Below, one piece after another: positions 32,695-49,205 of a stretch of DNA of 64,000 bases (position 1 is the stretch's first letter; each line of letters starts with the position of its first letter). Both the position numbers and the translations under genes were made by a program. The notes beneath the pieces were generated by a model, which worked only from the letters and a program-made list of their open reading frames with translations, had not been told where the DNA came from and did no database searches. This stretch comes from Verrucomicrobiota bacterium (GTDB lineage Bacteria; Verrucomicrobiota; Kiritimatiellia; SS1-B-03-39; UBA6053), in NCBI GenBank assembly GCA_020831625.1, contig JAFIGD010000020.1:1-64000 (forward strand). The letters run 5' to 3'.

Positions 32695-35241
32695 ATGAAC
32701 TTATTTCGAATTTTTCTGATTTGCTTCTGTTTTCATGTGCAGGTCTTTTCATCGGGGGACGACATTCAGGGGTTCTTTTCTTTGAAGAACGGCGACGTGC
32801 TCAAAGGCAATCAGGTGAATCTGCGTGGAGACGCGTTCGAATTTTTTGCAAGGTCTTTCGATGCCCGCCTGACGCTGGAGCCGGAGGATTTGTCCGCATG
32901 GCAAGCGGCTGGTCTTCAGCCTTTGCGCGGCGATTCCCTTTCCCGGGTGCAACTTATCGGCGGCGAAGGGTTGGACGTCCGCGTTCTGGGTTTGGATGAT
33001 GCCTGGCTGTATGTGGAAACCGCATGGGGTCAACGAAGCGCGATCCGGGTGGCCGATCTCGCCCGGATCTCCCTGCCCGAAGCCACCGGGCCCCTATATC
33101 ACGGACCCCAGCCGCTTTCCGGTTTTCAAATCCCCAATGCTCCCGACGGGACGGTTCCGGGCTGGGTGGAGGTTGCCGGGGGAATCTCTTCGTTCTCCGG
33201 ACCCCGGGCCGCGCTGCCGCTGAATCTCCCGGACACCGATCCGGTCTTTCGGCTCTCCATGACGGTCCGGTCGCGGGGGGAAACAAATCTCGCCCTGGAT
33301 TTGGAGGGAAGCGGTTCCAGGGCGACCGGTCCCAACCGCATTTCCATTCGGCAGCGGCAAAACCAACTCACGGTGAATTCCTACACTCGAATCGGTTCAC
33401 TGACCGCCGGCGCCCGAACCCTGCCGGAGGACAGACTCGAAACGTATCACCTGGAATTCTATGTCAACCCCCGTGAAAATCACTACGTGCTCCGGTGGAA
33501 CGGCGTTCCGGTATGGGAGGGGCGGGAAGCGCCGGCGGATTCCTCCGAATCGTTTTCCTTTGAGAGACTCCGGATTCAGTTCATCGGCAACGCTCCGGTG
33601 TTGATTCAGGAGCTTAGGCTCAGTTCCTGGAACGGTCATCCGCCCCGTGAGTCGGAGGCTCCGGCATCGGGTGTGAGGGTCATTTTCAGGAATCAGGACG
33701 GGCTCACCGCCTCAAGCGTTCGAATGCGGGATGACGCATGGGTGCTGTCACCCGGAGAGGAGGCTGAACTCACGCTTCCGTTCGACAGAATTGCTGAATT
33801 GGTTTTTCCCGCTCCCGCGGGCGGGGATTCGGGACCGCCGCGGTTTGACGCGGAACTGCGTTTCGCTTTTCCTGGAAACCGGCTAAGGGTGACGGACCTT
33901 CAATTAAGTGGCGGCGCCGTTTCCGCACATCATCCGGCGTTTCGCGATCCATTGTCGGTACCCTTGCGGACGGTGCAGGGAATCGAATGGCGCGGGACCG
34001 AACCGCTCCCGCCGGTCACCGACGCCGGGACCGCGACCCTGCGGCTTCTCAGCGGTGAAATTCTCCGGGGAACGCTTGAGGGGTTCGCGGATGACCGCCT
34101 GAAGTTCCGCCCCGCCTGGCGCGACACGCCACTGACGGTTCCGCTGGCCGCCGTGGATACACTTTCACCGGCGGGTGAAGATGTTTTGACAGATTCGCCG
34201 CACCGCTTTCGGTTGATGAACCGGGACACGTTTCGGGGAACGCTGCAGGCGGTTAGCGAACGGGATGTTTCGGTTCTCGCTCCCTGGGGCGATGTTTTGC
34301 GCGTCGCGCGCGGCGGGTTGACGGAGATTTCCGCAATGGACGGGGAGCCGGGGGACTGGATTGACCGCTGGGGGAGCGATGCGGACTGGCGGATGACCCG
34401 GGGCTGGCGGCCCAATCCGCCCCCTCCGGACCCGGACGGGCCCTCCGTCGCCAGGGGGGGAATGATCTACGCCCGTCGGCTTCCCGACAGTCCCGATAAG
34501 GTGATGCTGGATCTGCCTTTGGAGGCGAATGCATCCGTGGGCCTTTTGTTTAATCTTTATGCCGCCGGGCCCGAACGGGGACGTCCGCTGGAAGGGGTTG
34601 AGGTCAATGTCACCTCCCGTCAGATTCTCGCGCGGGTTTCGGGCGGGGCTGAATGGGTGAACTATGAGCGAATTCCGGTTGCGCCCAATCGGCTGCAGTT
34701 CTTTTTTGATCCTGAGGCGGACACAATTTCCATATTTTTGAACGGGGAGGAGATCCCTTCGATAAACCTTCCTTTGCCAAAAGGGTTGGAGAATCGGTGG
34801 ATGTGGTTCCAATCGATCGGAAACAATTTCTCCACCGCCGGACTGCAGGTACACCCCTGGAGCGGCAAACCCGACCCGGAGATGCGGAGAATGAAAGCCC
34901 GGGCGCTGGACGAAATTCTGATGGCAGGGGCCCCGCCGCTTCGCGGCCGTCTGCTCCCGGACGCGCCGGGCCGGCTCGCGTTCCTTCCCGAAGGAGCACA
35001 TGAAGCCCTCACGTTCCCGGTCCGGGAACTGCAACGGTTGCGATTCCAGGCCGACACGCAATATGAGTCCCGTTCGAAAGCGGGGGACGTTCAGGTGTTG
35101 TTTCGCGGCGGTGGCTCCTTCTTGACGCTGACGTGGCTGAAGGGCGATGGGGACACCATCGTCGGGAACGGCGAAGCCTGGCGGGATCCGGTGTCGATTC
35201 CCCTCCGCTTTGTCGAAACGATTCTCTTCAACGAGCCGTAA
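32695..35241 (+). CDS. Large exported protein with repeated small beta modules and two LamG-like segments
   Basis: An 848-residue protein with a signal peptide (about residues 1-20). It appears to be built from about seven copies of a 45-residue beta module of the form LxxGdxLxGxlxxxxddxlxxxxxWgxxLxVPLxxVxxI. Examples are LLSGEILRGTLEGFADDRLKF, LMNRDTFRGTLQAVSERDVSV, and the N-terminal SLKNGDVLKGNQVNLRGDAFEF. Two concanavalin/LamG-like segments sit between them (about 135-310 and 555-735, the latter with INLPLPKGLENRWMWFQSIG). No catalytic site was seen; an extracellular structural or glycan-binding role is inferred. ATG 32695 is preferred over an in-frame upstream start because it begins the signal peptide. 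Its 3' end overlaps the convergent GH123-like gene by 14 bases. Confidence 0.7.
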   Translation: MNLFRIFLICFCFHVQVFSSGDDIQGFFSLKNGDVLKGNQVNLRGDAFEFFARSFDARLTLEPEDLSAWQAAGLQPLRGDSLSRVQLIGGEGLDVRVLGLDDAWLYVETAWGQRSAIRVADLARISLPEATGPLYHGPQPLSGFQIPNAPDGTVPGWVEVAGGISSFSGPRAALPLNLPDTDPVFRLSMTVRSRGETNLALDLEGSGSRATGPNRISIRQRQNQLTVNSYTRIGSLTAGARTLPEDRLETYHLEFYVNPRENHYVLRWNGVPVWEGREAPADSSESFSFERLRIQFIGNAPVLIQELRLSSWNGHPPRESEAPASGVRVIFRNQDGLTASSVRMRDDAWVLSPGEEAELTLPFDRIAELVFPAPAGGDSGPPRFDAELRFAFPGNRLRVTDLQLSGGAVSAHHPAFRDPLSVPLRTVQGIEWRGTEPLPPVTDAGTATLRLLSGEILRGTLEGFADDRLKFRPAWRDTPLTVPLAAVDTLSPAGEDVLTDSPHRFRLMNRDTFRGTLQAVSERDVSVLAPWGDVLRVARGGLTEISAMDGEPGDWIDRWGSDADWRMTRGWRPNPPPPDPDGPSVARGGMIYARRLPDSPDKVMLDLPLEANASVGLLFNLYAAGPERGRPLEGVEVNVTSRQILARVSGGAEWVNYERIPVAPNRLQFFFDPEADTISIFLNGEEIPSINLPLPKGLENRWMWFQSIGNNFSTAGLQVHPWSGKPDPEMRRMKARALDEILMAGAPPLRGRLLPDAPGRLAFLPEGAHEALTFPVRELQRLRFQADTQYESRSKAGDVQVLFRGGGSFLTLTWLKGDGDTIVGNGEAWRDPVSIPLRFVETILFNEP

Positions 35242-36976
35242 TTTCGTCGGCGGCGTCATACACCCGCCGCAGGACGTCCTGCCAGTCCGTGAACGCGAGT
35301 TCGCTCTGACGATTTCTGGCTTCGCTGGTGGTGCCAAACCAAATGTTGTGAAAAATCCGATACATGTCCATATACGCCTCGGCACCGCGTTCTTTCACCT
35401 CGGGCGGCAGGTCGGCGGTCTTGTCGGTAAGCGCGATGTGGAGAATGCGCATGGCTTCGGCGAGAGTGGTGCCCATGCGGAGGGCTTCGGAGTGTTGGGA
35501 GGCGAGGGCCCCCGCGGGGCCGGGCGGCAGCATCCAGCGGGGATTGTCGCGGTAGAGATTGTGCCAGCGTTCAAAACGGCCGATGAGGGTGCCGCCGGAG
35601 GTGTTCCAGAAATCCATCCCGAGTCTGCCGATGCCGACATAGGTTCGGCCGGGACTGTTGTACGCGGCGAATGGCATGAAGAAATAAAGCCCGGGTTCGT
35701 CGTTTTGAACGGGATTGGCGGAGGGATATCCGCGGAAGGAGGTGAGGACCGGAAAGTTGTCGGTTCCCCGGTCCGGCGGGCTGTCGAGCGGCGCGTCGGT
35801 CAGCCGGCGGTTGTCGGGCGCGTAGGGGAACTCCACAAAGGCGAAGTCGAGCCCGGCGAGGGTGTGGGTGGTGTCATTCTTCTCCGGGACCCGCGGATCC
35901 CCGCGGCCGTGCGTGTATGCGGCCCAGCGCAATCCGGGGGCGGCGGTCTCATAAAAGGAGGTCATTTCGTCGGAGAAATTCCGCTCATCGCCGATCATGC
36001 CGATCAGCACCTCGGTGTCGCGCCACCCCTGCCGACGGACCCGCTCGACAATGCCGCCCACGGCGGCGCGCCAGCGTTCGGCCTGACCGGATTCGGAATA
36101 GTGGGGCCATTCGGTGATTTCACCGCCGGCGGCCCCGGGGCGGTCAATCGTGGTCACGCGCACCGGTCTCGAATCCCGCCACCAGCGTCCCTCGTTCATG
36201 TAGATGATGACTTTCCGGGGCGGGCCGATGTGTTCGGCCCAGAGGTCCAGATAGCGTTCGAGGACTCTGAATTCGGGGCGCGGGTTGTTGCCGCCGGTCC
36301 AGCGGATCATGCTCAGGTCGTCGCCAAAATGGGTGCGGCCGACCGGGGTGATGTAGAGCACATGATTGCCCACCCGGCCCATTTCGCGCAGGGTGGGGGT
36401 CAGGAGGTCAAAGTGTTCGTCCGACCATTTTTCGACTCCGTAGTGTCTCGCCACCGACGCCGGAGAATTGAGCAGGCTGATCCAGCCGCCAAAATTGTTC
36501 GGGGAGGGCGCGATCCAGGTTCCCACCTCGAGCAGCACCGGGACAGAAACGCCGGTATCGAGGGTCAAGTGACCACCATAGCGGCCGGGCGGGGCGTTCG
36601 GCGGGACCTGAACGGTGACCCACACCACCTGACCGGCCTCATGGGGTTCCGCGTCGGGGGCCAGGCCCTCCCATCCGTAGCGGATTTCGAACAGTTCGGC
36701 GGGAAATCGGGCGGTGCCGTGTTCATGGCGAAGGTCGGATATGCGGGCCTGAACGGGTTGACGGATGTCGGGAAAGACCACCGGGGCGGTGGCACCGCTG
36801 TTTCGCGGGGACACCAGACGAATACGCGGGGCGGCGGAACGGTCCCAGCGCGTGTCGGGCCGCACGGGTGTCAGGGGATTGGGGGTGACGATTGCGGATT
36901 GCGCCCAGGCCGCCGGGGCGAGGAGTCCGAGATACAGGAGTCGGAAGAGTTTGTGGAGGGAATCTGAGGTACGCAT
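35228..36976 (-). CDS. Secreted GH123/DUF4091-like glycoside hydrolase homologue
   Basis: A 582-residue protein with a signal peptide (residues 1-26, ending AWA), a beta-rich N-terminal domain of about 150 residues (VWVTVQVPPNAPPGRYGGHL) and a TIM-barrel-like region. Landmarks are SPASVARHYGVEKWSDEH, IGMIGDERNFSDEM, THGRGDPRVPEKND and RLGMDFWNTSGGT. The adjacent Asp-Glu in GDERN fits the substrate-assisted pair of GH123 hexosaminidases, so activity on N-acetylgalactosamine-type glycans is possible. It is paralogous to the protein at 8636-10618 but lacks the SHD1 module. ATG 36976 begins the signal peptide. It is followed by a convergent gene and preceded by the ABC transporter operon on the same strand. 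Confidence 0.65.
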   Translation of the reverse strand: MRTSDSLHKLFRLLYLGLLAPAAWAQSAIVTPNPLTPVRPDTRWDRSAAPRIRLVSPRNSGATAPVVFPDIRQPVQARISDLRHEHGTARFPAELFEIRYGWEGLAPDAEPHEAGQVVWVTVQVPPNAPPGRYGGHLTLDTGVSVPVLLEVGTWIAPSPNNFGGWISLLNSPASVARHYGVEKWSDEHFDLLTPTLREMGRVGNHVLYITPVGRTHFGDDLSMIRWTGGNNPRPEFRVLERYLDLWAEHIGPPRKVIIYMNEGRWWRDSRPVRVTTIDRPGAAGGEITEWPHYSESGQAERWRAAVGGIVERVRRQGWRDTEVLIGMIGDERNFSDEMTSFYETAAPGLRWAAYTHGRGDPRVPEKNDTTHTLAGLDFAFVEFPYAPDNRRLTDAPLDSPPDRGTDNFPVLTSFRGYPSANPVQNDEPGLYFFMPFAAYNSPGRTYVGIGRLGMDFWNTSGGTLIGRFERWHNLYRDNPRWMLPPGPAGALASQHSEALRMGTTLAEAMRILHIALTDKTADLPPEVKERGAEAYMDMYRIFHNIWFGTTSEARNRQSELAFTDWQDVLRRVYDAADEITAR

Positions 36977-37020
36977 TGAGAATGCTGTACAACAAAACCG
37001 ATGAAGATGCAAAAGGCGAT

Positions 37021-37926
37021 TCAAATCACATCATCGCCGACCACGGTCATGCGGGTGAGGGGGAGTTTGTCTTCTTTGTGGAGTGACGGGGGATGGATGA
37101 GGGCGTCGAGGCGGGCGCGGAGGGCCTGGAAGGGTTCTGACTGGAACTGCTCGGGGGTGCGGGGCTGGGGGACGGGATTTTCGATGAGTTCCATAACGCG
37201 GCCGGGGTTGGCGCCGAGCACGAGAATGCGGTCGGCGAGATAGACGGCCTCGTCGAGATCGTGGGTGATGAAGAGGATGGTGACATCGATCTGCCGCCAG
37301 ATCTGCATGAGGTAGGACTGCATCTGGGCGCGGGTCTGGGCGTCGAGCGCCCCGAAGGGTTCGTCCATGAGCAGGATGCGGGGGTTGTTGGCGAGGGCGC
37401 GGGCGATGGCCACCCGCTGTTTCATGCCGCCGGAGAGCTGGTGGGGGTAGTGGTTCTCGAATTTGGAGAGGCCGACGAGAGCGATCCATTCGCGTGCCTC
37501 GCTTTCGGCGAGGTGTCCGGGTTTTCCACCCACCTTGAGGCCGAACATGACGTTCTGTTTCACGGTGAGCCAGGGGAAAAGGGTGTAGCCCTGAAAAACC
37601 ATGCCGCGGTCGGATCCGGGGCCGCGCACCGTTTTGCCGTCGAGGCGGACGTCGCCGCCGGTGGGGAAATCGAGGCCGGCGAGAATGCGGATGAGGGTCG
37701 ATTTTCCGCAGCCGGAGGGACCGAGCACGCAGACGAATTCGCGGCGGCGGACCTGAAAGGAGATCTCTTCAATGGCGACATGGCTGCCGTGGGCGGAGTC
37801 GAATTCTTTGCGGAGTTTGTCGACCTCGAGGATGATGGGGCGCTGCTTCAGCTTTTCGAAGCGGGCGGCGACTTCCGGGCTTTGGCGGCGGTAGGCGTCG
37901 GGATCGATGATGAGCGGGGCGGTCAT
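37021..37926 (-). CDS. ABC transporter ATPase, nitrate/taurine/urea-guanidine type
   Basis: A 301-residue ATP-binding subunit. It has Walker [11 protein letters not shown]-loop [10 protein letters not shown], signature [15 protein letters not shown], Walker [14 protein letters not shown]-loop and switch His [11 protein letters not shown], as in the SsuB/TauB/NrtD class. An N-terminal extension of about 40 residues precedes the fold, as is common in transporters near urea-carboxylase-type genes. It overlaps the permease gene by ATGA. The operon order binding protein, permease, ATPase and its location next to allophanate hydrolase suggest import of a nitrogenous substrate such as guanidine or urea; the substrate itself cannot be read from sequence. 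Confidence 0.9.
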
Positions 37927-38939
37927 GCGGCGTCTCCGGCGGGGGGCGGGGGATTGCGGACGAGGAACCGGAACAGCAGCGGCTTTTTGCCTTCGGATTT
38001 CCAGGGAAAGACTGCGAGGCGGAGGTCGTCGAGAATGCGGTCGGTCACAAAACCGATGATGCCGATGATGAGAATGGCGGCGAAGACGTTGTCGTAGTTG
38101 CGGTAGCGGGCCTGCTGATTGATGAAGAAGGTGATGCCGGAGCTGGCGCCGATGTATTCGGCGACCACGAGGTAGGTCCAGGCCCAGCCGAGCAGGATGC
38201 GCATGTCGTTGTAGAGATCGGAGGCTATGCCGGGAAGGACCACTTTGAAAAGGAGATGCCGGGGTTTGGCCCCGAGGGTTTGCGCGGCTTCGATCAGGGA
38301 GGGATCCATTTTGCGGGTGGTGTTGGCGACCACGAGGATTTGCTGAAAAAAGGTGCCGATGAAAATGATGGCGACTTTGGGGGCGTCGTGAATGCCGAGA
38401 ATGGCCACGGCCAGGGCTCCGAAGGCGGGGGCGGGCATGTAGCGGATGAAATCGACGACCGGTTCGGTCAGCCGCGAGACGCTTCCGTACACTCCGCAGA
38501 GAATGCCGAGGGGGAGTCCGATGATTGAACTCCAGACAAAGCCGGTGAAGATGATGCGGATACTGTGGCCGATGCTTTCATGGAACCAGGGTTCGTTGGC
38601 GCGGCGGGGCGGGGTTTTGAAGGCGCGGTAGAGGGCGGTGCCCACCTCGTGGGGCGCGGGCAGGAAAATAGGGTTGCTGCGCTTGCCGGTGGCGGGCGTG
38701 CCCCCGATGGCTTCGATGCGAGCGTTTTCGCGGGCGAGGGTATGGCGGTCGATCAGCTGACCGGGCTGCAGGTAGGTGATGTCCCCGCGGTCCTGAATGC
38801 GGACCATGGGATGCCAAAGCACGGGCACATAACTGACGGCGCACCAGACCATCAGCGGGAGCAAAAAAGACCCCCACCCCAGACACGCCCTTAACCGGGG
38901 AGACAGGGGCGCGAAGGGGATGAGGGGCGAACGGCGCAT
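37923..38939 (-). CDS. ABC transporter permease, urea carboxylase-associated type
   Basis: A 338-residue inner membrane protein with an N-terminal transmembrane segment and then a hydrophilic loop of about 60 residues ([20 protein letters not shown] ... [11 protein letters not shown]). The BPD-type permease domain follows, with five to six helices and the EAA loop [20 protein letters not shown], which contacts the ATPase. The long periplasmic insertion after the first helix is characteristic of permeases linked to urea/guanidine carboxylase clusters. It starts 8 bases after the binding-protein gene and overlaps the ATPase gene by 4 bases. Confidence 0.88.
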
Positions 38940-38947
38940 GGACAGAA

Positions 38948-39955
38948 TTACAGTCCGAGGCCGAGCGTGATGGCGGGGTAGATGTAATCGGCGACGTTTT
39001 GCGGCGTGTCGTACACTTCGTTGGCCACGTTGAAGGCGTCGGCGATTTTGCTGGATCCGAAGATCGAGGACAGTTCATCGGACACCGCGAAGGCGGCCTG
39101 CGCCTCCTCAAGGGTCAGGATTTGCGTTCCGTCCACGAATTCCGCATAGGCTTCGGCGGTGAGACCCACACGCGAGGCCATAATGGCGATGGCGCTGTCG
39201 CGGGTGTCTTCGTTGAGGATATAGTCGACCACGCGGTACCAGACCTGCACCACTTTCTCCCAGTCCTCCATGCGTTCGGACAGGCTGGTGGGGCTGACGG
39301 CCAGAACGTCGTAGATGAGACCCGGCACGTCGGCGCTGGTGAAGATCGCGGTGGAGCCCGCGACCGCCTGCAGGGCCTGGGAGGAGTTGGGCTGCCAGGC
39401 GACCACCGCATCCACATCCCCGGCGGCGAAGGCCTGCGGCAGATCGTGGGTGGGGATGTTGATCAGGGTGACATCGCTTTCGGTCATGTCATGGGCCTCC
39501 AGCGCTTTGAGCAGGAGCAGATGGCAGACATAACCCACCTCAACGCCGACGCGTTTTCCGGCCAGTTCCGGCACCGAAGTGATTCCCGGGGCGGCGACCA
39601 GCATGTCGTTGCCGTTGCTGAAATCGTTGATGAGGATGGCGAGGCTCGGCGCGCCCGCTTCACCGGTGACCAGCGCGTCGCCGTTGGTCATGGTGACCGC
39701 ATCGAGCTGTCCGGCGGCAAAGGCGTCCATGGATTCGACGTAATCGAACCATTCGAATTTGACCGGGACTCCGGCCTCCTCGAACCAGCCCTTTTGGATG
39801 GCGATTTCCCAGGCGACCCAGCCCGGCCAGTCGCTGTAGCCGATCACCAGCGGCGCGGCGGAGGTTTCGGGGGCGGGCGAGCGGCCGCAGCCGACAAAGG
39901 TCATCAGGGCCAGCGACAGCGCGGCACTCCATTTTAGAGAATGTTTAAGCTTCAT
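38948..39955 (-). CDS. ABC transporter substrate-binding lipoprotein, urea/guanidine cluster
   Basis: A 335-residue periplasmic binding protein of the NMT1/TauA/SsuA type, with a signal peptide and lipobox FVGC (Cys near residue 23). Segments typical of the fold are VIGYSDWPGWVAWEIAIQKG, VKFEWFDYVESMDAFAAGQL, TMTNGDALV, LAGKRVGVEVG and VAWQPNSSQAL. It is the first gene of the transporter operon, with AAGGAA four bases before the ATG. No guanidine riboswitch (ykkC, mini-ykkC or guanidine-III) could be recognised in the roughly 230 bases upstream. A role in uptake of guanidine or urea is inferred from neighbouring catabolic genes. Confidence 0.88.
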   Translation of the reverse strand: MKLKHSLKWSAALSLALMTFVGCGRSPAPETSAAPLVIGYSDWPGWVAWEIAIQKGWFEEAGVPVKFEWFDYVESMDAFAAGQLDAVTMTNGDALVTGEAGAPSLAILINDFSNGNDMLVAAPGITSVPELAGKRVGVEVGYVCHLLLLKALEAHDMTESDVTLINIPTHDLPQAFAAGDVDAVVAWQPNSSQALQAVAGSTAIFTSADVPGLIYDVLAVSPTSLSERMEDWEKVVQVWYRVVDYILNEDTRDSAIAIMASRVGLTAEAYAEFVDGTQILTLEEAQAAFAVSDELSSIFGSSKIADAFNVANEVYDTPQNVADYIYPAITLGLGL

Positions 39956-40219
39956 AAGGTTCCTTGGGTTGAGAATCGATCAATCATCGACAAGAAGACA
40001 TTAGCAGTCCATATGCCAAGACCACATTTCAGGACGAAAACGGGGGAATTATGGGTTTAATTAATTAAATAAGGTTTATATAAATCACCAGGCCGATATT
40101 TTACAGATACAAAAATGTACTAAACGGCATCAGTAGTATGATAAAAATACATATTCGTATGATGAAAGAGGCGGGATCTCGTTCTTGATTTGATTCAGAG
40201 GGCATGGCAAAATAACGGC

Positions 40220-41182
40220 ATGAAACAGGCGGGGAATTACGATCCGGAGAAGCATCATCGTAGGAGTATTCGGCTGAAGGGGCATGATTATGCCGGCGGC
40301 GGGGTATATTTTGTGACCATTTGCGCGCATCGGGAAATCATCGGGGTTACAGGCCGGAAGCCGTTCACGGGGGAGATGAGGGAATTGATTGAGGAGCGCA
40401 TTCGGATCACGGCGGAAAAATGCGCGCAAATGCGCTGGGGCGAATGGGTGATTATGCCGGATCATTTTCATGCGATTATTTATATGGAAAAGGGAAAATT
40501 GGGGTTGGGCGATGTGGTGGGCGGATTTAAGGCAGCGGTTTCGCGGGAATGGAATCGGGCGACGCAGGCGTCGCCCATACGGGCCGTAGGGGCGAGGCCT
40601 GCCTCGCCCCATGCCTCGCCCGTACGGGCGGGGCCTGCTCCGCCCAATGCCCCGCCCAATGCACCGCGCCCCCGCATATGGCATCGCAATTTTTATGAGC
40701 GCATTGTGCGCTCGCGGGAGGCTGAGGCGCGCATCGCCGAATATATCCGCATGAATCCCTGGCGCTGTGTGCAGGACTTGGGCGCGGGATTGCGGGGCAT
40801 CGGGAATCCCGCCCTTTGGAGCGGGGAAAAGCTGGGGGTGCTGTGCAGCCGCAACGCGCCGAAAATCGGTCGGTTGCCTGAAGCGGATGTGTATTTTAGC
40901 GGATGGCATTCGCCCAAAGAGAAAGAGATTCTCCAATGGCTGTTGGCCAACGGACGGCGGGTGATTGCCTGTCCAGCGTGGGGCATTGAAAACAGCGCCT
41001 TCGCGCCCGGCGTACGTCAGGCGCTGGAGGAAAACCGAATGCTGATCCTGGAAATGCGCGACACCTCGGGCAATCTGGCGGCGGCGGAGGCCCGGAACCG
41101 ATTTGTTATCGAAGCGGCGGACGGGCTGTTTACGCCGTATGTGACCCCGGGCGGGATGCTGGCGCGGCTGTTGCGGTGGTGA
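40220..41182 (+). CDS. Y1/RAYT-like transposase fused to a DprA-like domain
   Basis: A 320-residue protein. Residues 1-175 are an IS200/REP-associated tyrosine transposase-like HUH domain: YFVTICAHRE, then the metal-binding segment VIMPDHFHAIIYM, and NFYERIVRSREAEARIAEYIRMNPWRC carrying the candidate catalytic Tyr. Residues about 190-320 resemble the Rossmann fold of DprA/Smf (LGVLCSRNAPK, FSGWHSPKEKEILQWLLANG, RVIACPAWGIEN, AAEARNRFVIEAADG). A block of palindromic repeats is translated between the YxxxY-like parts at residues 113-152. The 3' end overlaps the convergent allophanate hydrolase gene by 53 bases. It probably mobilises or processes short palindromic repeats. ATG 40220 is preferred to an upstream in-frame start at 40190. 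Confidence 0.7.
   Translation: MKQAGNYDPEKHHRRSIRLKGHDYAGGGVYFVTICAHREIIGVTGRKPFTGEMRELIEERIRITAEKCAQMRWGEWVIMPDHFHAIIYMEKGKLGLGDVVGGFKAAVSREWNRATQASPIRAVGARPASPHASPVRAGPAPPNAPPNAPRPRIWHRNFYERIVRSREAEARIAEYIRMNPWRCVQDLGAGLRGIGNPALWSGEKLGVLCSRNAPKIGRLPEADVYFSGWHSPKEKEILQWLLANGRRVIACPAWGIENSAFAPGVRQALEENRMLILEMRDTSGNLAAAEARNRFVIEAADGLFTPYVTPGGMLARLLRW
40558..40676. repeat. Palindromic GC-rich repeats embedded in the transposase gene
   Basis: A chain of short inverted repeats of one design: GGGCGACGCAGGCGTCGCCC, GGGGCGAGGCCTGCCTCGCCCC and GGGCGGGGCCTGCTCCGCCC, separated by ATACGGGCC/GTACGG linkers. It is kept in frame and adds about 40 Ala/Pro/Arg-rich residues to the transposase domain, at a position where relatives normally have a short loop. 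Confidence 0.75.
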
Positions 41183-42731
41183 ATCCCCGCCAGCCGCCGT
41201 GATGGGTGATGTCCTCGGCACCGCGGAGGCCTTCAGGTTCGCAGAGAAAGCCTTTGACGCGCCCGCCGTCTTCGAGCTGCAGGGTGCCGATGCCGAGGGG
41301 GGCCGGGATGTTGGCGACGAATTCGCCAAAGGCGGCGGGGGTGAGTTCGTAGAGTTCGATCTCAATGGCAGCGCCGCCCTCGGCGACCCGGAGCAGACCT
41401 GGCTTGGGCGGATTTGTCTCGGCCAGGGCGTAGAGGCGGTAGCAGGGGGCGGTGCGCGCGGCGCGAAGAAAGCGGGCGTTGAGTGTCTCGAGCTGACCGT
41501 GCAGCGCCATGCCGCGGAGGTGGGCCCCGACCACGGCAAGGGCCACCATGTTTTGGGGTTGCGCCTCCGCTTCGCCGAGAAACACTTCGGCGGCATGAAA
41601 GAGGGCCTCGTCTTGAAAGGCGGGCGCGAGCAGGGTGACCCCGGTGGGAATGCCGCTGGCGAGGGTGCCACAGGGCACGGCGATGGCGCAGAGATCAAGC
41701 AGGTTCACGAAATTGGTGTAGGTACCGAGATTGGAGTTCAGGCGCACGGGATCCGCCTGCACGGCTTCGATTGTGTAGCAGGTGGGCGCGGTGGGGAGCA
41801 TGAGCAGATCCATCTGCTGCCAGCGTTCCGCAGCTTGTGCTTGAAGCTCCCGCAGTCGATCCATGGCCTCGAACAGGGCTTGCGCAGGGTGCTTGGCCCC
41901 GCCGCGAATGATGGCGGAAACAGTGGGTTCGGCATCAGCGGGTTCGGTGTCGAGAAAGGCACCCACGGCGGCGTAGCGTTCGGCGACAAACGGGCCTTCG
42001 TAGAGGAGCCGCGCGGCGGCGAGAAAGGGGGCGGGGTCGATAAACACGAGGGTGTGGCCTCGCGCCTGCCACTGTGCGAGGGCGGCGGCATAGGCGGCCT
42101 GGGCGGAGGGGTCGTTGTCGAAAAAGAGCGATGCCGGATCGGCGACCCCGATGCGCCAGGGTCCGCCGGGAAAGGAGGTGGAAGTGGGCGGGGCGCAGGC
42201 GCGGAACACGCTCCGCGCCATGTCCACGGTTTTGCTGAAGATGGAGACGCAGTCCAGCGAGGCGCAGGCGGGCACCACGCCTTGGGTGCTGAGCAGGCCT
42301 TTGGTGGGTTTGAAGCCGATGAGCCCGTTGAAGGCGGCGGGCACGCGGCCCGAGCCCGCGGTGTCGGTTCCGAGAGCGAAATCCGCTTCACCGGTGGACA
42401 CGGCCACCGCCGATCCGGAGCTGGAGCCGCCGGAGATGTAGTCGGGATGGTGCGGATTGCGGCAGGGACCGTACGGAGAGCGGGTGCCGACGAGTCCGGT
42501 GGCGAATTGATCCAGATTGGTTTTGCCGATACAGACCGCGCCGGCGTTCAGCAGTGCCTCCACCACCGGGGCGGACTGTTCTGGCAGGTAGGCGTAGGAG
42601 GGGCAGGCGGCGGTCGTGGGCATCCCGGCGACATCAATGTTATCCTTCACCGCCATGCGGAGTCCGCCCAGCGGACCGGTCAGATTGCGGGACGGGGCGG
42701 GAGAGGCGGGTTTGTGGATCCAGGTGGTCAT
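41130..42731 (-). CDS. atzF: Allophanate hydrolase
   Basis: A 533-residue amidase-signature enzyme that hydrolyses allophanate to ammonia and CO2. Catalytic Lys is in MAVKDNIDVAG, and the Ser-cisSer-Lys signature is seen in YISGGSSSGSAVAVSTG and GTDTAGSGRVPAA. The C-terminal AtzF domain (about 415-515; FGEFVANIPAPLGIGTL, VKGFLCEPEGL, GAEDITHHGGW) is present. After the usual end near GGWRGF the protein runs on for about 17 unrelated residues that overlap the convergent transposase, suggesting the native stop was lost when the element inserted. It acts last in the carboxylase/deiminase route. A small two-gene module and a palindrome pair separate it from the carboxylase gene. Confidence 0.93.
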   Translation of the reverse strand: MTTWIHKPASPAPSRNLTGPLGGLRMAVKDNIDVAGMPTTAACPSYAYLPEQSAPVVEALLNAGAVCIGKTNLDQFATGLVGTRSPYGPCRNPHHPDYISGGSSSGSAVAVSTGEADFALGTDTAGSGRVPAAFNGLIGFKPTKGLLSTQGVVPACASLDCVSIFSKTVDMARSVFRACAPPTSTSFPGGPWRIGVADPASLFFDNDPSAQAAYAAALAQWQARGHTLVFIDPAPFLAAARLLYEGPFVAERYAAVGAFLDTEPADAEPTVSAIIRGGAKHPAQALFEAMDRLRELQAQAAERWQQMDLLMLPTAPTCYTIEAVQADPVRLNSNLGTYTNFVNLLDLCAIAVPCGTLASGIPTGVTLLAPAFQDEALFHAAEVFLGEAEAQPQNMVALAVVGAHLRGMALHGQLETLNARFLRAARTAPCYRLYALAETNPPKPGLLRVAEGGAAIEIELYELTPAAFGEFVANIPAPLGIGTLQLEDGGRVKGFLCEPEGLRGAEDITHHGGWRGFTTATAAPASRPGSHTA

Positions 42732-42856: not shown

Positions 42857-42892
42857 TTGCTATCATAAGCGGGTTAGGTTATACTTGTGAGT

Positions 42893-43192
42893 ATGGAAAA
42901 TGCAGATACAGATCAGGTGAAGGCCTATTTGCGGGAAATCGGCGCGAAAGGCGGACGGAAAAGCCGCCGCAGGCTGGATCCTGCCCAGGCGCGGCGCATG
43001 GTGGCGGTGCGCGAGGCCCGGCGGGCGTTTCGGGCGTACAAAACCCAATGCTTCTGGAGTTTCAACCCCGACTGGGATATACAATTTAATCAGGTGCCGA
43101 TTATCATTCAAACGCTGAGAGTTGAAGGGAATGCAAAAACGTATGCCTTGGCAAAACGCCTGAAAAAACTCCATTCAGGACTGGAGGTTTAA
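42893..43192 (+). CDS. Small conserved protein, probable antitoxin-like partner
   Basis: A 99-residue basic protein. The N-terminal half has a GGRKSRRRLDPAQARRMVA segment rich in Arg/Lys that suggests nucleic acid binding. The C-terminal half contains QCFWSFNPDWDI and VPIIIQTL. Similar small proteins occur upstream of nucleotidyltransferase-like genes in verrucomicrobial and related genomes, which fits a toxin-antitoxin or abortive-infection-type module. Here the partner gene, starting two bases after the stop, is broken. ATG 42893 is preferred; GTG 42887 is in frame. A TATACT box lies just upstream at 42880-42885. It interrupts the nitrogen cluster on the opposite strand. Confidence 0.6.
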   Translation: MENADTDQVKAYLREIGAKGGRKSRRRLDPAQARRMVAVREARRAFRAYKTQCFWSFNPDWDIQFNQVPIIIQTLRVEGNAKTYALAKRLKKLHSGLEV

Positions 43193-43193
43193 G

Positions 43194-43558
43194 ATGCCCG
43201 TCGGACCCTTTGAAACGGAAGTGTTGCGGACACTCGCAGCCAACAGGAATCCGGAAAGTTTTATTGGAGGAGCGACGGTATTAAACCACGAACCCATCAT
43301 TATGATGCTTTGGCATATGACGGCCTGAAGTTTTCCCAACCGGCCGACCCCCAAAAATTAAAAATGAGTTGGCTTGCGGCAATTCGGGAGGCTAAGATTT
43401 TATTCGATGTTCTGTCAGATCAGGATGCGCCTTACGGCTGTTTTTTCCTGGATCAAAACGGCGAGCCTCAAACCCCGACCGCTGAGACGCTCTCGACGCT
43501 GCACCCGCATTACGGCTCGCTGCGCGGCTGCTGGCCGAGGATTGTGGACGAAGAATAG
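43194..43558 (+). pseudogene. Nucleotidyltransferase-like gene with internal deletion and frameshift
   Basis: The first 31 codons (MPVGPFETEVLRTLAANRN, then IGGATVLN) look like the start of an AbiEii-like or DUF-type nucleotidyltransferase gene. The reading frame then hits TGA at 43323. From about 43280 another frame continues with HHYDALAYDGLKFS, KMSWLAAIREAKILFDVL and HYGSLRGCWPRIV, which is the expected C-terminal part. The central region carrying the usual GG...DxD active site residues is missing. The gene is therefore the remnant of an effector whose small partner at 42893 is still intact. Confidence 0.65.
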
Positions 43559-43573: not shown

Positions 43574-46500
43574 CTAATTTTTTCCGTCCAATACCGCCAG
43601 GATTTGTCCGGCGGTGACGGGTTTGCCTTCGGGGAGGCGGAGTTCGGTGACGGTGCCGCCGCAGGGGGCGGGAACGTTGGTTTCCATTTTCATGGCTTCG
43701 ATGACCGCGAGGGTGTCGCCTTCGCGGACGGTGTCGCCGGGCAGGACGGTCCATTTCCAGAGGCTGCCGCTGAGGGGGGAGCGGAGGGCTTCGCAGCCGT
43801 CGGGGATGTCGTCTTCGCTTTCGGGCGGCGGGGCGAGGTCGTCGCTTTCGGGAAGGGGCGGGAGGAGCTTCCAGCGTTCGCGCTCTTCATTAAAGGCCTG
43901 ACGCTGGGTGGCGCGGAAGCTTTCGATTTCACCCGCGTTTTCATCGAGGAAGCGGTGGTAGTCGCGGGGGCGGAAGGTTTCGGTTTCGATGCGCAGTTTG
44001 TGGCGTCCGAGCAGGAAGTCCTTGCGGAGCCGCAGGAGTTCTTCGGCGCTGACGGGATAGAAGCGGATCTGATCGAAGAAGCGGAGCAGCCAGGGCTTGC
44101 CGTCTTTGAAGTCGGCGGTTTGACGGAAGGTGTTCCAGACCTGCAGGGTGCGGCCGACGAACTGATAGCCGCCGGGTCCCTCCATCCCGTAGATGCACAG
44201 GTAGGCGCCGCCGATGCCGACGGAGTTTTCGGCTGTCCAGGTGCGGGCGGGATTGTATTTGGTGGTGACGAGGCGGTGGCGCGGATCGAGCGGTGTGGCC
44301 ACGGGGGCGCCAAGGTACACATCGCCGAGGCCGAGCACGAGGTAGCGGGCGTCGAAGACGATGCGCTTGACGTCCTCGATGCTGTCGAGTCCGTTGATGC
44401 GGCGGATGAATTCGATGTTGCTGGGACACCAGGGCGCGTCGGGGCGCACGGACTGGGTGTATTTTTCGATGGCGAGGCGGGTGGCGGGGTCGTCCCAGGA
44501 GAGGGGGAGGTACACGACGCGGGAGGTGACTTCGACATCGAGGGTGTCGCCGAGTTCCTCTTCGCCCTGGATGAGGCGTTCGAGGAGGGTTTGCCGGGGG
44601 AGTTCGGCGGTGTTGTAGTGGATTTGCAGGGAGCGGATGCCGGGGGTGAGTTCCCACATGCCGGGAAGGTTCTGCTCCTTGAGCCACTGCATGAGTCCGT
44701 GGGCGCGGAGGCGCAGATCGAGGTCGAGGACGATGGGGCCGTATTCGACGAGCAGATATTTATCGCCCTGGGCGCGGTAACAGACGGAGGGGCGTTCTGG
44801 GGTTTCGGGCAGGGTGGCGAGAATGGGCGAGGTAAGCGCGGCGGGATCGAAGGCGGGCGCTTCGGGGAGGGTTGCGGGGTAGGAGGCACCGTCGCGGGCG
44901 GCTTCGACGGCGGTGGCCTCCTCCTGGGAGACGGGCACGAAGCGGAGGGTGTCTTCGGGGCGGAGCTGGCCCATGATCCAGCGGTCGCCGGCAATGATGA
45001 CGGCGGGGCAGACGAAGCCGCCGAGGCTGGGGCCGTCGGGTCCGAGAATGATGGGCATGTCACCGGTGAAATCGACGGCGCCGATGGCGTAGGCGTTGTC
45101 GTGAATGTTGGAGGGGTGCAGGCCGGCTTCGCCGCCGTCGGACCGGGCCCATTCGGGTTTGGGGCCGATGAGGCGGATGCCGGTGGGGTTGGAGTTGTAG
45201 TGGACTTTCCAGTCGGTGGTGAAGAACATGGAAATGTCTTTGCCGGTGAAAAAGTCGGGTGCGCCGTGGGGGCCGTAGAGGACGCGGATGTTCCAGTGGC
45301 GTCCCCAGACGGGCGGAGCGAGGACTGGGAGCGGTGCGTCGGTGTGGGGTTCGGGATGCAGGTGGAGCACATCGCCGGGACGCAGGGCGCGTCCGGCGGG
45401 TCCGCCGAAGCCGCCGAGGGTGAAGGTGGCGCGGGAGCCGAGGTATTCGGGACAGTCGATGCCGCCGGCGATGGCGAGATAGGTTCGGCATCCGGCGTCG
45501 GCAATGCGCTTGAGGCGCACAACCTGTCCGGCTTTGACGGGCACGGCCCGGTCCATGGGCAGGTCGGTTTCGATGCGGGCCCCGGTGAGGGCGATGACGG
45601 TGTCGCAGTTGAATTGCAGTGCGGGGCCGGTGAGGGTGATCTCCAGGGCGGGTGCGCCTTCGGGATTGCCGAGGAGGCGGTTGGCGAGGCGGAAGGAGGC
45701 GTCGTCCATGGGACCGGAGGGGGGGACACCAACATCCCAGTGGCCGATGCGTCCGGGCCAGTCCTGCACCGTGGTCATGGCCCCGCCGTCGAGCACGTCG
45801 ACGCAGTGGGCGAGGTAGGGAAAGCTGTCGAGAAAGCGGGTGGTGGCATAAAAAGGTGGAGGCGCCGCATCCTGCGGCGGAAGACCGGGGCAGGATGCCC
45901 CGCGTCCAAGTTTACCGGGGCAGGATGCCCCGCGTCCAAGTTTACCGGGGCAGGATGCCCCGCGTCCGGAGATAACGGTGAGGAGTTCCCAGAGGTATTC
46001 GAGATTGGTTTCGATGCCGGAGAGGGTGGTGTGTTCGAGGGCGTTGCGGAGGGCGGACAGGGCCTGATCGCGGGTGTCGGCTTTGGTGATGATCTTGGCG
46101 ATCATGGGATCGTAGTCGGAGGGAACGACGGTGCCGCGCTCGACCCAGGTTTCGATTCGCGCGGTTTCGGGGAACTGCGCTTCGAGGAGCAGTCCGGCGC
46201 TGGGCTGGAAGCCGCGGTGGGGCGCTTCGGCATAGACGCGGGCCTGTATGCTGTGGCCCTGGGGCTCAAGGATTTGGTCGAACATGCTTTCGTCGCCAAA
46301 GGCGAGGCGGATCATCCATTCGACCAGATCGATGCCGTAGATTTCCTCGGTGACCCCGTGTTCGACCTGCAGGCGGGTGTTGACTTCGAGAAAGTAGAAC
46401 GCGCCGGTGTCGGCATCCATCACGAACTCGACGGTGCCGGCGGAGCGGTAGCGGACGGATTCGCCGAGGGCGCGGGCGGCGTCCGCGAGGGCGGCGCGGG

Positions 46501-47263
46501 TGGTGTCGTCGAGGCCGGGCGCGGGGGTTTCCTCCACGACTTTCTGATTGCGCCGCTGCAGGGAGCAGTCGCGCTCGCCGAGGGTTAACACCCGGCCCTT
46601 TCCGTCGCCGAAGAGCTGAACCTCGATGTGGCGGGCGTGGCGGACGTATTTCTCCAGAAAGACGCCCGCGTCTTTGAAGGTGCGGGAAGCAAGGCCGCGC
46701 ACGGCTTCGAACTGTTCGCGGAGGGCGTCGGGGCTTTCGCAGACCTTCATGCCGATGCCGCCGCCGCCGGCGGTGCTTTTGAGCATGACCGGATAGCCAA
46801 TGTCTTCGGCGGCGGTGAGGGCTTGGTCGAGGGAGTCAAGGAGTCCGGTGCCCGGCAGCAGCGGAACCCCGGCGGCTTTGGCGAGGGCTTTGGCCTCGTG
46901 CTTGAGGCCGAAGGAGACCATTTGTTCGGGGGTGGGACCGATGAAACGGATGCCTTCGGCTTCGAGACGGCGGGCGAAATCGGCGTTTTCACTGAGAAAG
47001 CCGTAGCCGGGATGGACGGCGGCGGCGCCGGTGGCGCGGCAGGCTGCGAGGATTTTATCGGTATCCAGATAGCTCTGCGCTGCCGGGGCGGGACCGAGGC
47101 AGACGGATTCATCCGCCTGGGAGACGTGCAGGGAACCGTGATCGGCGTCGGAGTACACCGCCACCCCCCGGAGATTCATGTGTTTGAGGCTGCGCAGGAC
47201 GCGGCAGGCGATGGCGCCGCGGTTGGCGACGAGGACGGGTTGGGAGGTGAGGGAGGCGGGCAT
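43574..47263 (-). CDS. Urea/guanidine carboxylase (biotin-dependent)
   Basis: A 1229-residue multifunctional enzyme that carboxylates urea or guanidine with bicarbonate and ATP. The biotin carboxylase part (about 1-430) has the ATP-grasp loop STAGGGGIGMK and EVNTRLQVEHGVTEEIYG. The carboxyltransferase part (about 475-1130) is of KipA/KipI type (TVQDWPGRIGHWDVGVPPSG; ELTPGIRSLQIHYN). A C-terminal biotinyl domain carries EAMKMETN, the Lys being the biotin site. Linkage to DUF1989 genes and to allophanate hydrolase without urease genes favours guanidine as substrate, but the choice rests on an active-site residue not resolved here. The linker between the two enzyme parts contains three in-frame 10-residue repeats. 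Confidence 0.92.
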   Translation of the reverse strand: MPASLTSQPVLVANRGAIACRVLRSLKHMNLRGVAVYSDADHGSLHVSQADESVCLGPAPAAQSYLDTDKILAACRATGAAAVHPGYGFLSENADFARRLEAEGIRFIGPTPEQMVSFGLKHEAKALAKAAGVPLLPGTGLLDSLDQALTAAEDIGYPVMLKSTAGGGGIGMKVCESPDALREQFEAVRGLASRTFKDAGVFLEKYVRHARHIEVQLFGDGKGRVLTLGERDCSLQRRNQKVVEETPAPGLDDTTRAALADAARALGESVRYRSAGTVEFVMDADTGAFYFLEVNTRLQVEHGVTEEIYGIDLVEWMIRLAFGDESMFDQILEPQGHSIQARVYAEAPHRGFQPSAGLLLEAQFPETARIETWVERGTVVPSDYDPMIAKIITKADTRDQALSALRNALEHTTLSGIETNLEYLWELLTVISGRGASCPGKLGRGASCPGKLGRGASCPGLPPQDAAPPPFYATTRFLDSFPYLAHCVDVLDGGAMTTVQDWPGRIGHWDVGVPPSGPMDDASFRLANRLLGNPEGAPALEITLTGPALQFNCDTVIALTGARIETDLPMDRAVPVKAGQVVRLKRIADAGCRTYLAIAGGIDCPEYLGSRATFTLGGFGGPAGRALRPGDVLHLHPEPHTDAPLPVLAPPVWGRHWNIRVLYGPHGAPDFFTGKDISMFFTTDWKVHYNSNPTGIRLIGPKPEWARSDGGEAGLHPSNIHDNAYAIGAVDFTGDMPIILGPDGPSLGGFVCPAVIIAGDRWIMGQLRPEDTLRFVPVSQEEATAVEAARDGASYPATLPEAPAFDPAALTSPILATLPETPERPSVCYRAQGDKYLLVEYGPIVLDLDLRLRAHGLMQWLKEQNLPGMWELTPGIRSLQIHYNTAELPRQTLLERLIQGEEELGDTLDVEVTSRVVYLPLSWDDPATRLAIEKYTQSVRPDAPWCPSNIEFIRRINGLDSIEDVKRIVFDARYLVLGLGDVYLGAPVATPLDPRHRLVTTKYNPARTWTAENSVGIGGAYLCIYGMEGPGGYQFVGRTLQVWNTFRQTADFKDGKPWLLRFFDQIRFYPVSAEELLRLRKDFLLGRHKLRIETETFRPRDYHRFLDENAGEIESFRATQRQAFNEERERWKLLPPLPESDDLAPPPESEDDIPDGCEALRSPLSGSLWKWTVLPGDTVREGDTLAVIEAMKMETNVPAPCGGTVTELRLPEGKPVTAGQILAVLDGKN
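45884..45967. repeat. 30-bp tandem repeat (2.8 copies) inside the carboxylase gene
   Basis: Unit ACCGGGGCAGGATGCCCCGC plus GTCCAAGTTT, present at 45884-45913, 45914-45943 and, partially, 45944-45967. Each unit contains the palindrome GGGGCAGGATGCCCC. Being a multiple of three it stays in frame and encodes GRGASCPGKL repeats in the linker (residues about 432-460). A related inverted sequence, CGCCGCATCCTGCGGCG, lies just to the left. Confidence 0.9.
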
Positions 47264-47355: not shown

Positions 47356-48009
47356 TTAGGGGTTCCAGAGGAGGACGCGGATGGGAGTGGGGTTGTAGGC
47401 GTTGCAGGGGTTGTTGAGCTGGGGGCAGTTGGAGATGAGGGCGATGACATCGCGTTCGGCGCGCATCTCGACGTATTTGCCGGGGGCGGAGACGCCGTCC
47501 TCGAAGGTGAGGCCGCCTTCGGGGGTAACGGGGACGTTCATGAAGAAGTTGATGTTGTGACCGAGTTCGCGTTTGCCCAGAAGTTTTCCGGTCTCCATGC
47601 CGAATTCCGACAACTTGAGCAGAAAGGTGTCGCGGCAGTTGTGCATGTGATGCTTGTCGAGGGCGTAGCGGACCTGATTGCTTTCGGCGGCGCAGGCACC
47701 GCCGAAGGTGTCGTGGCGGCCGCAGGTGTCGGCGGTGATGGTGAGCAGGGTCTTGCCGCTGAGGGATTTCAGTTCGGTGCCGGTGGTGAGGTAGATGCCG
47801 TTTTGCGCGCGGACGGTGTCCTGGGCGCTGTAGCGGTCGGACGGATCGGCGGCGTCAAAGAAAATGGTGTCGGCGGCCTGATTGCCTTCGAGGTCAATGA
47901 TGCGGAAGGTCTGGCCGGCTTTGATTTCGAGGATCCAGCCGTCGCCGGCGGGAACGGTGTGGTCGTAGACGGCGGTGGCGGGATCGAGGGGGGATTCGGT
48001 GAGGCTCAT
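47356..48009 (-). CDS. DUF1989 protein, urea carboxylase-associated (carboxyguanidine deiminase subunit-like)
   Basis: A 217-residue cytosolic protein of the DUF1989/UAAP2 family: [71 protein letters not shown]. Family members next to carboxylase and allophanate hydrolase have been shown to form the heteromeric carboxyguanidine deiminase (CgdAB), which converts carboxyguanidine to allophanate. Conserved Cys, His and Asn positions fit a metal- or substrate-binding site. The ATG overlaps the stop of the companion DUF1989 gene (ATGA), consistent with stoichiometric expression. Which of CgdA or CgdB this is was not decided. Confidence 0.88.
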
Positions 48010-48740
48010 AAGAAGTACCGTTCGGTGAGGGTGAAACCGCGGGCGTTCTCGGGACGGGAGACGCGGCAGATGTCGTCGGCGGCCGGGGGCGGAGAGGTGA
48101 AGCCGGTGAGGTCGAGCGGGGCGCGGGGATACGACCCGCCGGGATGCAGCGGATGGGGGCAGGTGTTGAGAATCACCAGCGTGTTCATTTCCGCACGAAG
48201 ATCCACGGTGCCGCCGGGGACGGCGTGTTCGGGATGGTAACGGAAGGCTCCGGATTCATCGACCATGACTTTGGCGAAGAAATTGATGTTCATGACCAGG
48301 TCTTCCAGCCCTAGACCATATTTGCCGAGTTCCATGAGGAAATTGTCACGGGCGTTGCGGTGGTAGTCGTTGCGGGCCTCCTGATAGGATTTGACCCCGA
48401 AGGTGGCTTCGACGGTGGCGCGGGTGGCGTGACCGGTCAGCGGATCGTGCCAGCCGAGGCTGTCGGAGGGAATGGAGAGGAGGATGCGGCCCATGTCGGA
48501 ATAGAGGCAGTGACCGGTGGTGAGTTTGGCGGTGTGCTGGGCCTTGAGGGTGTCGGGCAGATTGAGGCGTTCGGTAAGGTTGTCGGCATTGAAGGCGAGC
48601 AGGGAGACGTTGAGTCCGCCCTGCGGATCGCGGAGGCGCAGGGTGGTGCCGCGTTTTAAAATATGTGACCAGTTGGCGCCGGGCTGGACGGTTTCGGTGA
48701 AGCGGATGGATTCGGGCTTGAGATTGGGAGGTGTTTTCAT
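48006..48740 (-). CDS. DUF1989 protein, urea carboxylase-associated (second deiminase subunit-like)
   Basis: A 244-residue protein of the DUF1989/UAAP1 family, longer than its partner. Landmarks are [60 protein letters not shown] and [11 protein letters not shown]. It is expected to pair with the 217-residue DUF1989 protein encoded directly downstream, with ATGA overlap, to deiminate the carboxylated substrate. It begins 4 bases after the NikR-family gene, so the order nikR-like, DUF1989, DUF1989, carboxylase forms one transcription unit under the operator at 49178-49205. Confidence 0.88.
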
Positions 48741-48744
48741 GGGG

Positions 48745-49176
48745 TCAGTGGTCGTGAAGGGGTGGCAGGAGGGTGCTGTTGAGCTGGAGGGCGGCGTGTT
48801 TGACGCCTTTGAGGGAGCCGAAGGTGTCGCGCATGCCGCGGAGCAGTTTGCAGGGACCCTGCACGAGGAGAATCTGCAGGCTTTGATCGGCTTCGAGGTG
48901 CACGAGCTGTATGGTGATGATTTCTTTGAGGAACTCGTGTTGGAGGTCGGTGATGCGGTTCTGCAGGTTGCGCCGCTGGTGTTCGTAAATGAAGGTGAGC
49001 ACGCCCATCATCACCGTGTCGTCATGCGAGGCGTCGAAGGCGTTCACCGCCTCGGTGACGATGCCGGCGATGGCCTGGGAGCGGTTCGGAAAGCCCCGCC
49101 CCTCCGTCAGCCGGTCCAGACCGGCAAGGGTTTCATCGGGGATACTGACAGTAATGCGGCGCAGTTCTTGGCTCAT
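48745..49176 (-). CDS. NikR-family ribbon-helix-helix repressor with altered metal site
   Basis: A 143-residue regulator aligning over its whole length to NikR. The ribbon-helix-helix part (residues 6-45) reads RRITVSIPD then GRGFPNRSQAI, keeping Arg, Thr and a Ser/Thr at the base-contacting strand positions of E. coli NikR (R3, T5, T7). In the ACT-like metal domain, E. coli ligands H76, H87, H89 and C95 correspond to His80, Leu91, His93 and Ser99 here, so two of four nickel ligands are missing. It is the first gene of the nitrogen operon and the operator overlaps its own start region. Response to nickel is therefore doubtful; another ligand is possible. Confidence 0.88.
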   Translation of the reverse strand: MSQELRRITVSIPDETLAGLDRLTEGRGFPNRSQAIAGIVTEAVNAFDASHDDTVMMGVLTFIYEHQRRNLQNRITDLQHEFLKEIITIQLVHLEADQSLQILLVQGPCKLLRGMRDTFGSLKGVKHAALQLNSTLLPPLHDH

Positions 49177-49177
49177 A

Positions 49178-49205
49178 GTATGACGAATTTACTTAAACAT
49201 CATAC
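49178..49205 (-). promoter_or_regulatory. NikR-type operator GTATGA-N16-TCATAC
   Basis: GTATGA at 49178-49183 and TCATAC at 49200-49205 are separated by exactly 16 bases, a perfect match to the E. coli NikR operator consensus. It ends one base before the start codon of the nikR-like gene. On the minus strand it also contains TATGAT, a possible -10 element. Autorepression and control of the downstream nitrogen genes is expected. Confidence 0.85.

Follow-up and report, generated by a model that had tools for sequence, protein, structure and literature searches.

A NikR-like clade without the nickel thiolate accompanies guanidine operons and occupies the position of the guanidine-I riboswitch

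A 64,000-nucleotide stretch of DNA from a Verrucomicrobiota bacterium (assembly GCA_020831625.1, contig JAFIGD010000020.1; hereafter the window) encodes a NikR-fold protein that has lost two of the four nickel ligands of NikR. This protein heads a guanidine operon directly behind a NikR-type operator and is part of a large, separate NikR-fold clade rather than a lone oddity; genome comparison revealed that the NikR-like protein replaces the guanidine-I riboswitch at the operon head. Control of the guanidine operon by the protein is strongly supported, in the absence of binding or expression data, and guanidine as the effector is inferred only from the genomic substitution.

The regulator gene is a complete open reading frame whose product contains both Pfam domains of NikR (RHH_1, E=4e-6; NikR_C, E=2e-20), meeting the architectural criterion of an RHH domain joined to an ACT-like NikR_C domain, and it is the only NikR_C protein of the host genome. 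An AlphaFold model built from 52 relatives showed a mean pLDDT of 90.4 and the expected order of structural elements; Foldseek with this model returned NikR as the leading PDB matches (all 50 listed matches being NikR), and a sequence search of solved structures with the same protein gave no matches other than NikRs. The alignments to E. coli NikR and P. horikoshii 2bj1 are gap-free across the entire nickel site, so the register there is clear: the E. coli ligands H76, H87, H89 and C95 (PMC7055735) correspond to H80, L91, H93 and S99, and E30 and D34, which are among the ligands of the K+/low-affinity site (PMC7055735), to Gln34 and Gly38. His76, His87, His89 and Cys95 hold nickel in a square-planar geometry, and the window protein does not meet the criterion of this ligand set. 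The DNA-contacting strand residues R7, T9 and S11 are retained. Against the NCBIfam cut-offs, the protein narrowly passed PRK02967.1 (84 versus 83) and remained below PRK04460.1 (97.5 versus 105) and TIGR02793 (78 versus 175). It belongs to the NikR family by structure, yet fails the ligand test that defines a nickel-responsive NikR.

A profile scan with one genome per species matched 445 related loci, 80 of which were kept. The resulting clade spans Verrucomicrobiota and alpha-, beta- and gammaproteobacteria, and its four ligand columns vary widely (HLHS, HHHY, HHHT, YHHM, RHLT, AHFS and more), Cys95 being present in none of its members. No histidine or cysteine is invariant in the clade alignment, and this speaks against a new metal site common to its members; nor did the alignment show an invariant acidic pocket that could hold guanidinium, Glu85 being conserved at 89% only. 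The clade is marked instead by Gln106 (100%, versus Arg/Lys), Pro138 (100%) and Pro139 (87%) within a Pro-Pro-Leu tail, and its DNA-contact strand is unchanged throughout. In an IQ-TREE phylogeny of 90 proteins, all 71 proteins with a ligand set other than HHHC fell on one side of a branch with 100/99 support, placing the window protein opposite the HHHC NikRs; the split persisted when the four ligand columns were removed (SH-aLRT 99). Parsimony required one change for Cys95, at least seven for His76, and four each for His87 and His89. In the sampled tree, a single basal loss of Cys95 was followed by repeated erosion of the three histidines; the parsimony counts suggest, as the likely order, that the thiolate went first and that the remaining ligands drifted later. 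Another distant NikR-like group of the phylum (L272, L273 and L274; ligands DRLS/DRAS) was found in genomes without UAAP1.

A preliminary description, made from sequence alone, had proposed that H87 and C95 are replaced by Leu91 and Ser99, that H76 and H89 remain and that the DNA-contacting strand is conserved, and all of this held; the outcome named there as a refutation, an alignment restoring all four ligands, did not arise, as no gap or register shift in the alignments of the window protein restores them. Its suggestion that the Leu and Ser substitutions might define a clade failed: on the tree this pair is confined to a small verrucomicrobial sub-branch and was rejected as a clade definition, which we refine to the loss of Cys95, Gln106 and the Pro-Pro tail.

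The neighbourhood of the regulator is a guanidine operon, with no nickel transport or nickel enzyme genes beside it. On the minus strand, the regulator is followed by UAAP1, UAAP2, the carboxylase, the allophanate hydrolase, a small insertion and an ABC importer (Table 1), the four enzyme genes all exceeding curated cut-offs. All genes of the known pathway of guanidine carboxylase, CgdAB carboxyguanidine deiminase and allophanate hydrolase are thus present together with the importer; relative to that pathway, the window adds a protein regulator and has its importer genes downstream of the hydrolase. The substrate-binding protein is related by homology to that of the transporters in other NikR-like operons. 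Asp731 of the carboxylase aligns to Asn1330 of yeast urea amidolyase (5i8i; 3va7 was also aligned). According to a 2025 review (PMC12186494), Asp marks guanidine carboxylases and Asn urea carboxylases; that the residue meant there is this alignment column is our own inference, a likely one supported by controls, in which operons with urtABCDE and without UAAP carried Asn and operons with UAAP genes carried Asp. The guanidine-type residue therefore points to guanidine rather than urea as the substrate, and urea was rejected on Asp731 and gene content. No match to urease alpha was found in the host genome.

Table 1. Features of the guanidine operon and its regulatory sites in the window.
Feature	Position	Strand	Details
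NikR-fold regulator, RHH DNA-binding domain + NikR_C domain	48745..49176	-	143 aa, ligand set H80/L91/H93/S99
Operator GTATGACGAATTTACTTAAACATCATAC, perfect GTATGA-N16-TCATAC	49178..49205	.	one base upstream of regulator start codon
UAAP1 (DUF1989; carboxyguanidine deiminase subunit by homology)	48006..48740	-	TIGR03425 312.7 bits, cut-off 206
UAAP2 (DUF1989; carboxyguanidine deiminase subunit by homology)	47356..48009	-	TIGR03424 318.9 bits, cut-off 284.7
Urea/guanidine carboxylase, Asp731 (GAVDFTGD)	43574..47263	-	TIGR02712 1777.7 bits
Allophanate hydrolase	41130..42731	-	TIGR02713 688.5 bits
Two direct GTATGAT half-site-like repeats (40136 and 40157)	40136..40163	.	upstream of substrate-binding protein gene
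ABC transporter substrate-binding protein (NMT1-like)	38948..39955	-	homology; NMT1_2 in Pfam
ABC transporter permease	37923..38939	-	BPD_transp_1
ABC transporter ATPase	37021..37926	-	ABC_tran

Several further elements of the window were observed in and around the operon. The carboxylase gene contains, at 45884-45967, three perfect in-frame copies of a 30-bp palindrome-bearing unit (core GCGGGGCATCCTGCCCC), which add GRGASCPGKL repeats between the biotin-carboxylase and carboxyltransferase parts and have no further copies elsewhere in the window. Carboxylase and hydrolase are separated by 843 bp, within which lie two small open reading frames on the plus strand (101 and 82 aa; 42863-43558), neither with a Pfam match. 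Between the hydrolase and transporter genes, on the opposite strand, lies an IS200/REP-type Y1 transposase-like open reading frame (40190-41182, plus strand) that scored below the Pfam cut-off. A minus-strand gene at 35228-37024, with a weak match to glycoside hydrolase 123, shares four bases with the end of the gene for the transporter ATPase and is possibly co-transcribed with the transporter genes.

The linkage between clade and operon was evident across genomes. Among 129 NikR_C-like open reading frames, a set partly selected by clade-specific patterns, none of the 21 with HHHC and 100 of the 108 without it were near UAAP/carboxylase genes, and every associated carboxylase in which the column was covered carried the guanidine-type Asp. 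For an unselected test, NikR matches in a phylum sample of 241 genomes were read for their ligands; a non-HHHC protein was present in 22 of the 29 UAAP1-positive genomes and in 5 of the 212 others (Fisher P~1e-20, uncorrected for shared ancestry), only one of these five having the clade's Gln106. In one genome (G130) the two kinds coexist: the non-HHHC copy is adjacent to UAAP1 and the HHHC copy is on a different contig. Six of the seven UAAP1-positive genomes lacking the regulator have an extra UAAP copy. Asn-type urea operons with urtABCDE contained no NikR-like gene; for instance, two GntR-regulated urea carboxylase-urtABCDE operons (L171 and L175) share the carboxylase and allophanate hydrolase with the window operon, but have an Asn-type carboxylase and a urea transporter and lack both UAAP and NikR-like genes. 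Two loci depart from the usual arrangement: in L035, whose protein is 92% identical, the gene is not in the operon but on a short contig, fragments of the carboxylase being found in other parts of the genome, and genome G085 has a truncated clade member and no full carboxylase.

Additional arrangements were noted in this comparison. Six genomes (G002, G009, G011, G070, G089 and G112; loci L223, L225, L229, L231, L232 and L236) have three UAAP homologues each, and neither a NikR-like protein nor a guanidine-I riboswitch was found in them. In eight Novosphingobium loci (L053, L085, L087, L090, L095, L099, L101 and L113), the transporter genes lie between two NikR-like genes, both of which have a separate operator in part of these loci. 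At two loci of another kind (L046:7755-9892 and L062:7654-9812), a NikR-like gene with operators adjoins creatininase-family and glutamine-synthetase-like genes, possibly representing a second guanidine-related pathway; the L062 operator scores 16/16.

The perfect operator occurs once in the window and was absent from 100 shuffles; it shares 22 of its 28 bases with the genuine nik operator of E. coli, with no other site in the window reaching 18. The only other perfect copy in the host genome lies within the coding sequence of a serine-hydrolase gene, which fits chance, and it was rejected as evidence for a regulon. When promoters of the regulator and of transporter-type genes were scanned with the family pattern GTATKACG-N12-CGTMATAC, 61 of 80 loci yielded a site scoring 13/16 or higher, compared with 1 of 80 when the same promoter regions were read backwards; at 14/16, the background over whole loci was one site in 1.7 Mb. 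This count is not fully independent, as the consensus was drawn partly from inspecting some of the counted loci together with the E. coli site. The GTATGAT repeats upstream of the substrate-binding protein gene may possibly form a second, imperfect operator, which remains unproven. A sigma-70 scan of the regulator promoter found nothing, and therefore no exact geometry of repression is claimed.

A guanidine riboswitch is a common, though not a universal, feature of guanidine carboxylase operons. The guanidine-I riboswitch (RF00442, ykkC) shares with the NikR-like protein its target operon and head position, and is often paired with guanidine-II before the carboxylase; in enterobacterial operons, guanidine-I stands at the head and guanidine-II before the carboxylase (PMC12186494). 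The window operon differs in having a DNA-binding protein and an operator, with no Rfam match in the window, no guanidine-I in the host genome and, under stricter filters, none in the 241 genomes of the phylum sample. Guanidine-II was found exactly between UAAP2 and the carboxylase in nine proteobacterial NikR-like operons; because this element is kept and enterobacteria place guanidine-I at the head, the protein and its operator occupy the guanidine-I position. Conversely, guanidine-I preceded six Asp-type plasmid operons, in all of which UAAP1 lacked an adjacent NikR-like gene; the Acinetobacter operon of this set does have one at a later point, ahead of atzF. No riboswitch accompanied the NikR-like operon of Novosphingobium humi, and in Novosphingobium pentaromativorans the guanidine operon had neither regulator nor riboswitch. 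Guanidine-I was present in 8 of 50 NikR-like genomes; in four of these eight (L046, L051, L062 and L079) the NikR-like gene and the carboxylase are not neighbours, and guanidine-I lies upstream of a UAAP/carboxylase operon located elsewhere in the genome.

We favour, with only a modest margin of confidence, the reading that the protein represses guanidine uptake and assimilation locally, independently of nickel, and leaves its operator when guanidine or a closely related metabolite is present. The fold, the ligand loss, the clade, the operon linkage, the conservation of the operator and the riboswitch replacement are observed; that the protein represses, that it binds as a tetramer, what its effector is and in which direction this acts are all inferred. 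The RHH domain would still read the NikR half-site, and a tetramer would bind the 28-bp operator immediately preceding the regulator gene and, among relatives, a further operator at the ABC transporter promoter. Nickel sensing would have been lost at the clade base on replacement of Cys95, and the ACT-like C-terminal domain, with its clade-specific Gln106 and Pro-Pro-Leu tail, would now most likely respond to guanidine or a close metabolite such as methylguanidine or carboxyguanidine. Effector binding is predicted to free the operator, so that the regulator, UAAP1/2, carboxylase, hydrolase and importer are expressed. Several points count against this reading: the co-occurrence counts are not phylogenetically independent; seven of the 29 UAAP1-positive genomes of the phylum sample, and the operon of Novosphingobium pentaromativorans, lack the regulator; the clade shows no invariant acidic pocket; and, since the window protein retains two of the four ligands and some relatives three, nickel or another metal may still be bound weakly.

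The remaining claims of the preliminary description fared well. A perfect operator one base upstream of the gene was confirmed; the placement of the gene as the first of a urea/guanidine carboxylase operon held and is refined to the guanidine type by Asp731; and the view that DNA recognition is kept while the effector site changed is supported by cross-genome comparison, with the effector itself inferred. Of the two inputs suggested there, another metal or a nitrogen metabolite, the latter is favoured because the clade has no invariant His or Cys, again by inference.

The main rival, which remains possible, is that the regulator responds to overall nitrogen status or to a metabolite from further down the pathway (glutamine, ammonium, allophanate or urea). 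The ACT-like fold of the NikR C-terminal domain often binds amino acids, and some NikR-like loci, including the one with the 16/16 operator, adjoin glutamine-synthetase-like and creatininase genes; however, with the guanidine-I slot taken and guanidine-II kept in nine operons, the replaced input would be guanidine, and the NikR-like gene is absent from urea-type operons. A metal-sensing role that persists through a modified site (for Ni, Zn, Co or Cu) is unlikely, one example being a sensor that limits a nickel-free nitrogen route when nickel-dependent urease is usable. In its favour, H80 and H93 remain, HHHS/HHHT/HHHY relatives keep three ligands, and the NikR site tolerates redesign, as in engineered uranyl binding via V72, H76 and C95 (PMC4101488); against it, the nickel thiolate is missing from every clade member with no His or Cys invariant, and the operon is a guanidine rather than urea operon without nickel genes in a host lacking a urease alpha match, which leaves urease/nickel switching unsupported. 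Very unlikely is a degenerate NikR that binds DNA without effector as a constitutive damper or simple autorepressor: the operator does lie directly at the regulator start and the ligand columns vary widely, but the C-terminal domain is full length and gap-free with clade-invariant Gln106 and Pro138, suggesting that its function is kept rather than decaying.

The clade shares with NikR (E. coli 1q5v/2hzv, P. horikoshii 2bj7 and H. pylori 2cad) its architecture and fold, the Arg-x-Ser/Thr-x-Ser/Thr strand, GTATKAC-type half-sites at identical 28-bp spacing and, by inference, control of an ABC uptake system. It differs from NikR in the absent Cys95 and eroded histidines, in its Gln106 and Pro-Pro-Leu tail, in its separate tree branch and in its guanidine rather than nickel operon, the window protein additionally lacking E30 and D34. 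Since the window protein passes a nickel-regulator annotation model, proteins of this clade are likely mislabelled as nickel-responsive.

To our knowledge, no guanidine-responsive regulators other than riboswitches are known; guanidine-binding transcription factors have been named as a possible future discovery (PMC12186494), and the open-access literature searched contained no link between NikR and guanidine or urea carboxylase. A bolder reading, which could as easily prove wrong as right, is that guanidine-binding transcription factors have their first family in this clade, which would replace guanidine-I in Verrucomicrobiota and many proteobacteria, its NikR scaffold binding guanidinium instead of nickel at or near the old metal site after a single cysteine loss. 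The clade is a concrete candidate for the first known guanidine-sensing repressor protein, with a defined operator. If this is true, the clade would clearly illustrate how a metalloregulator can become a small-molecule sensor without losing its DNA recognition, and how a protein can take over from a riboswitch at the same operon.
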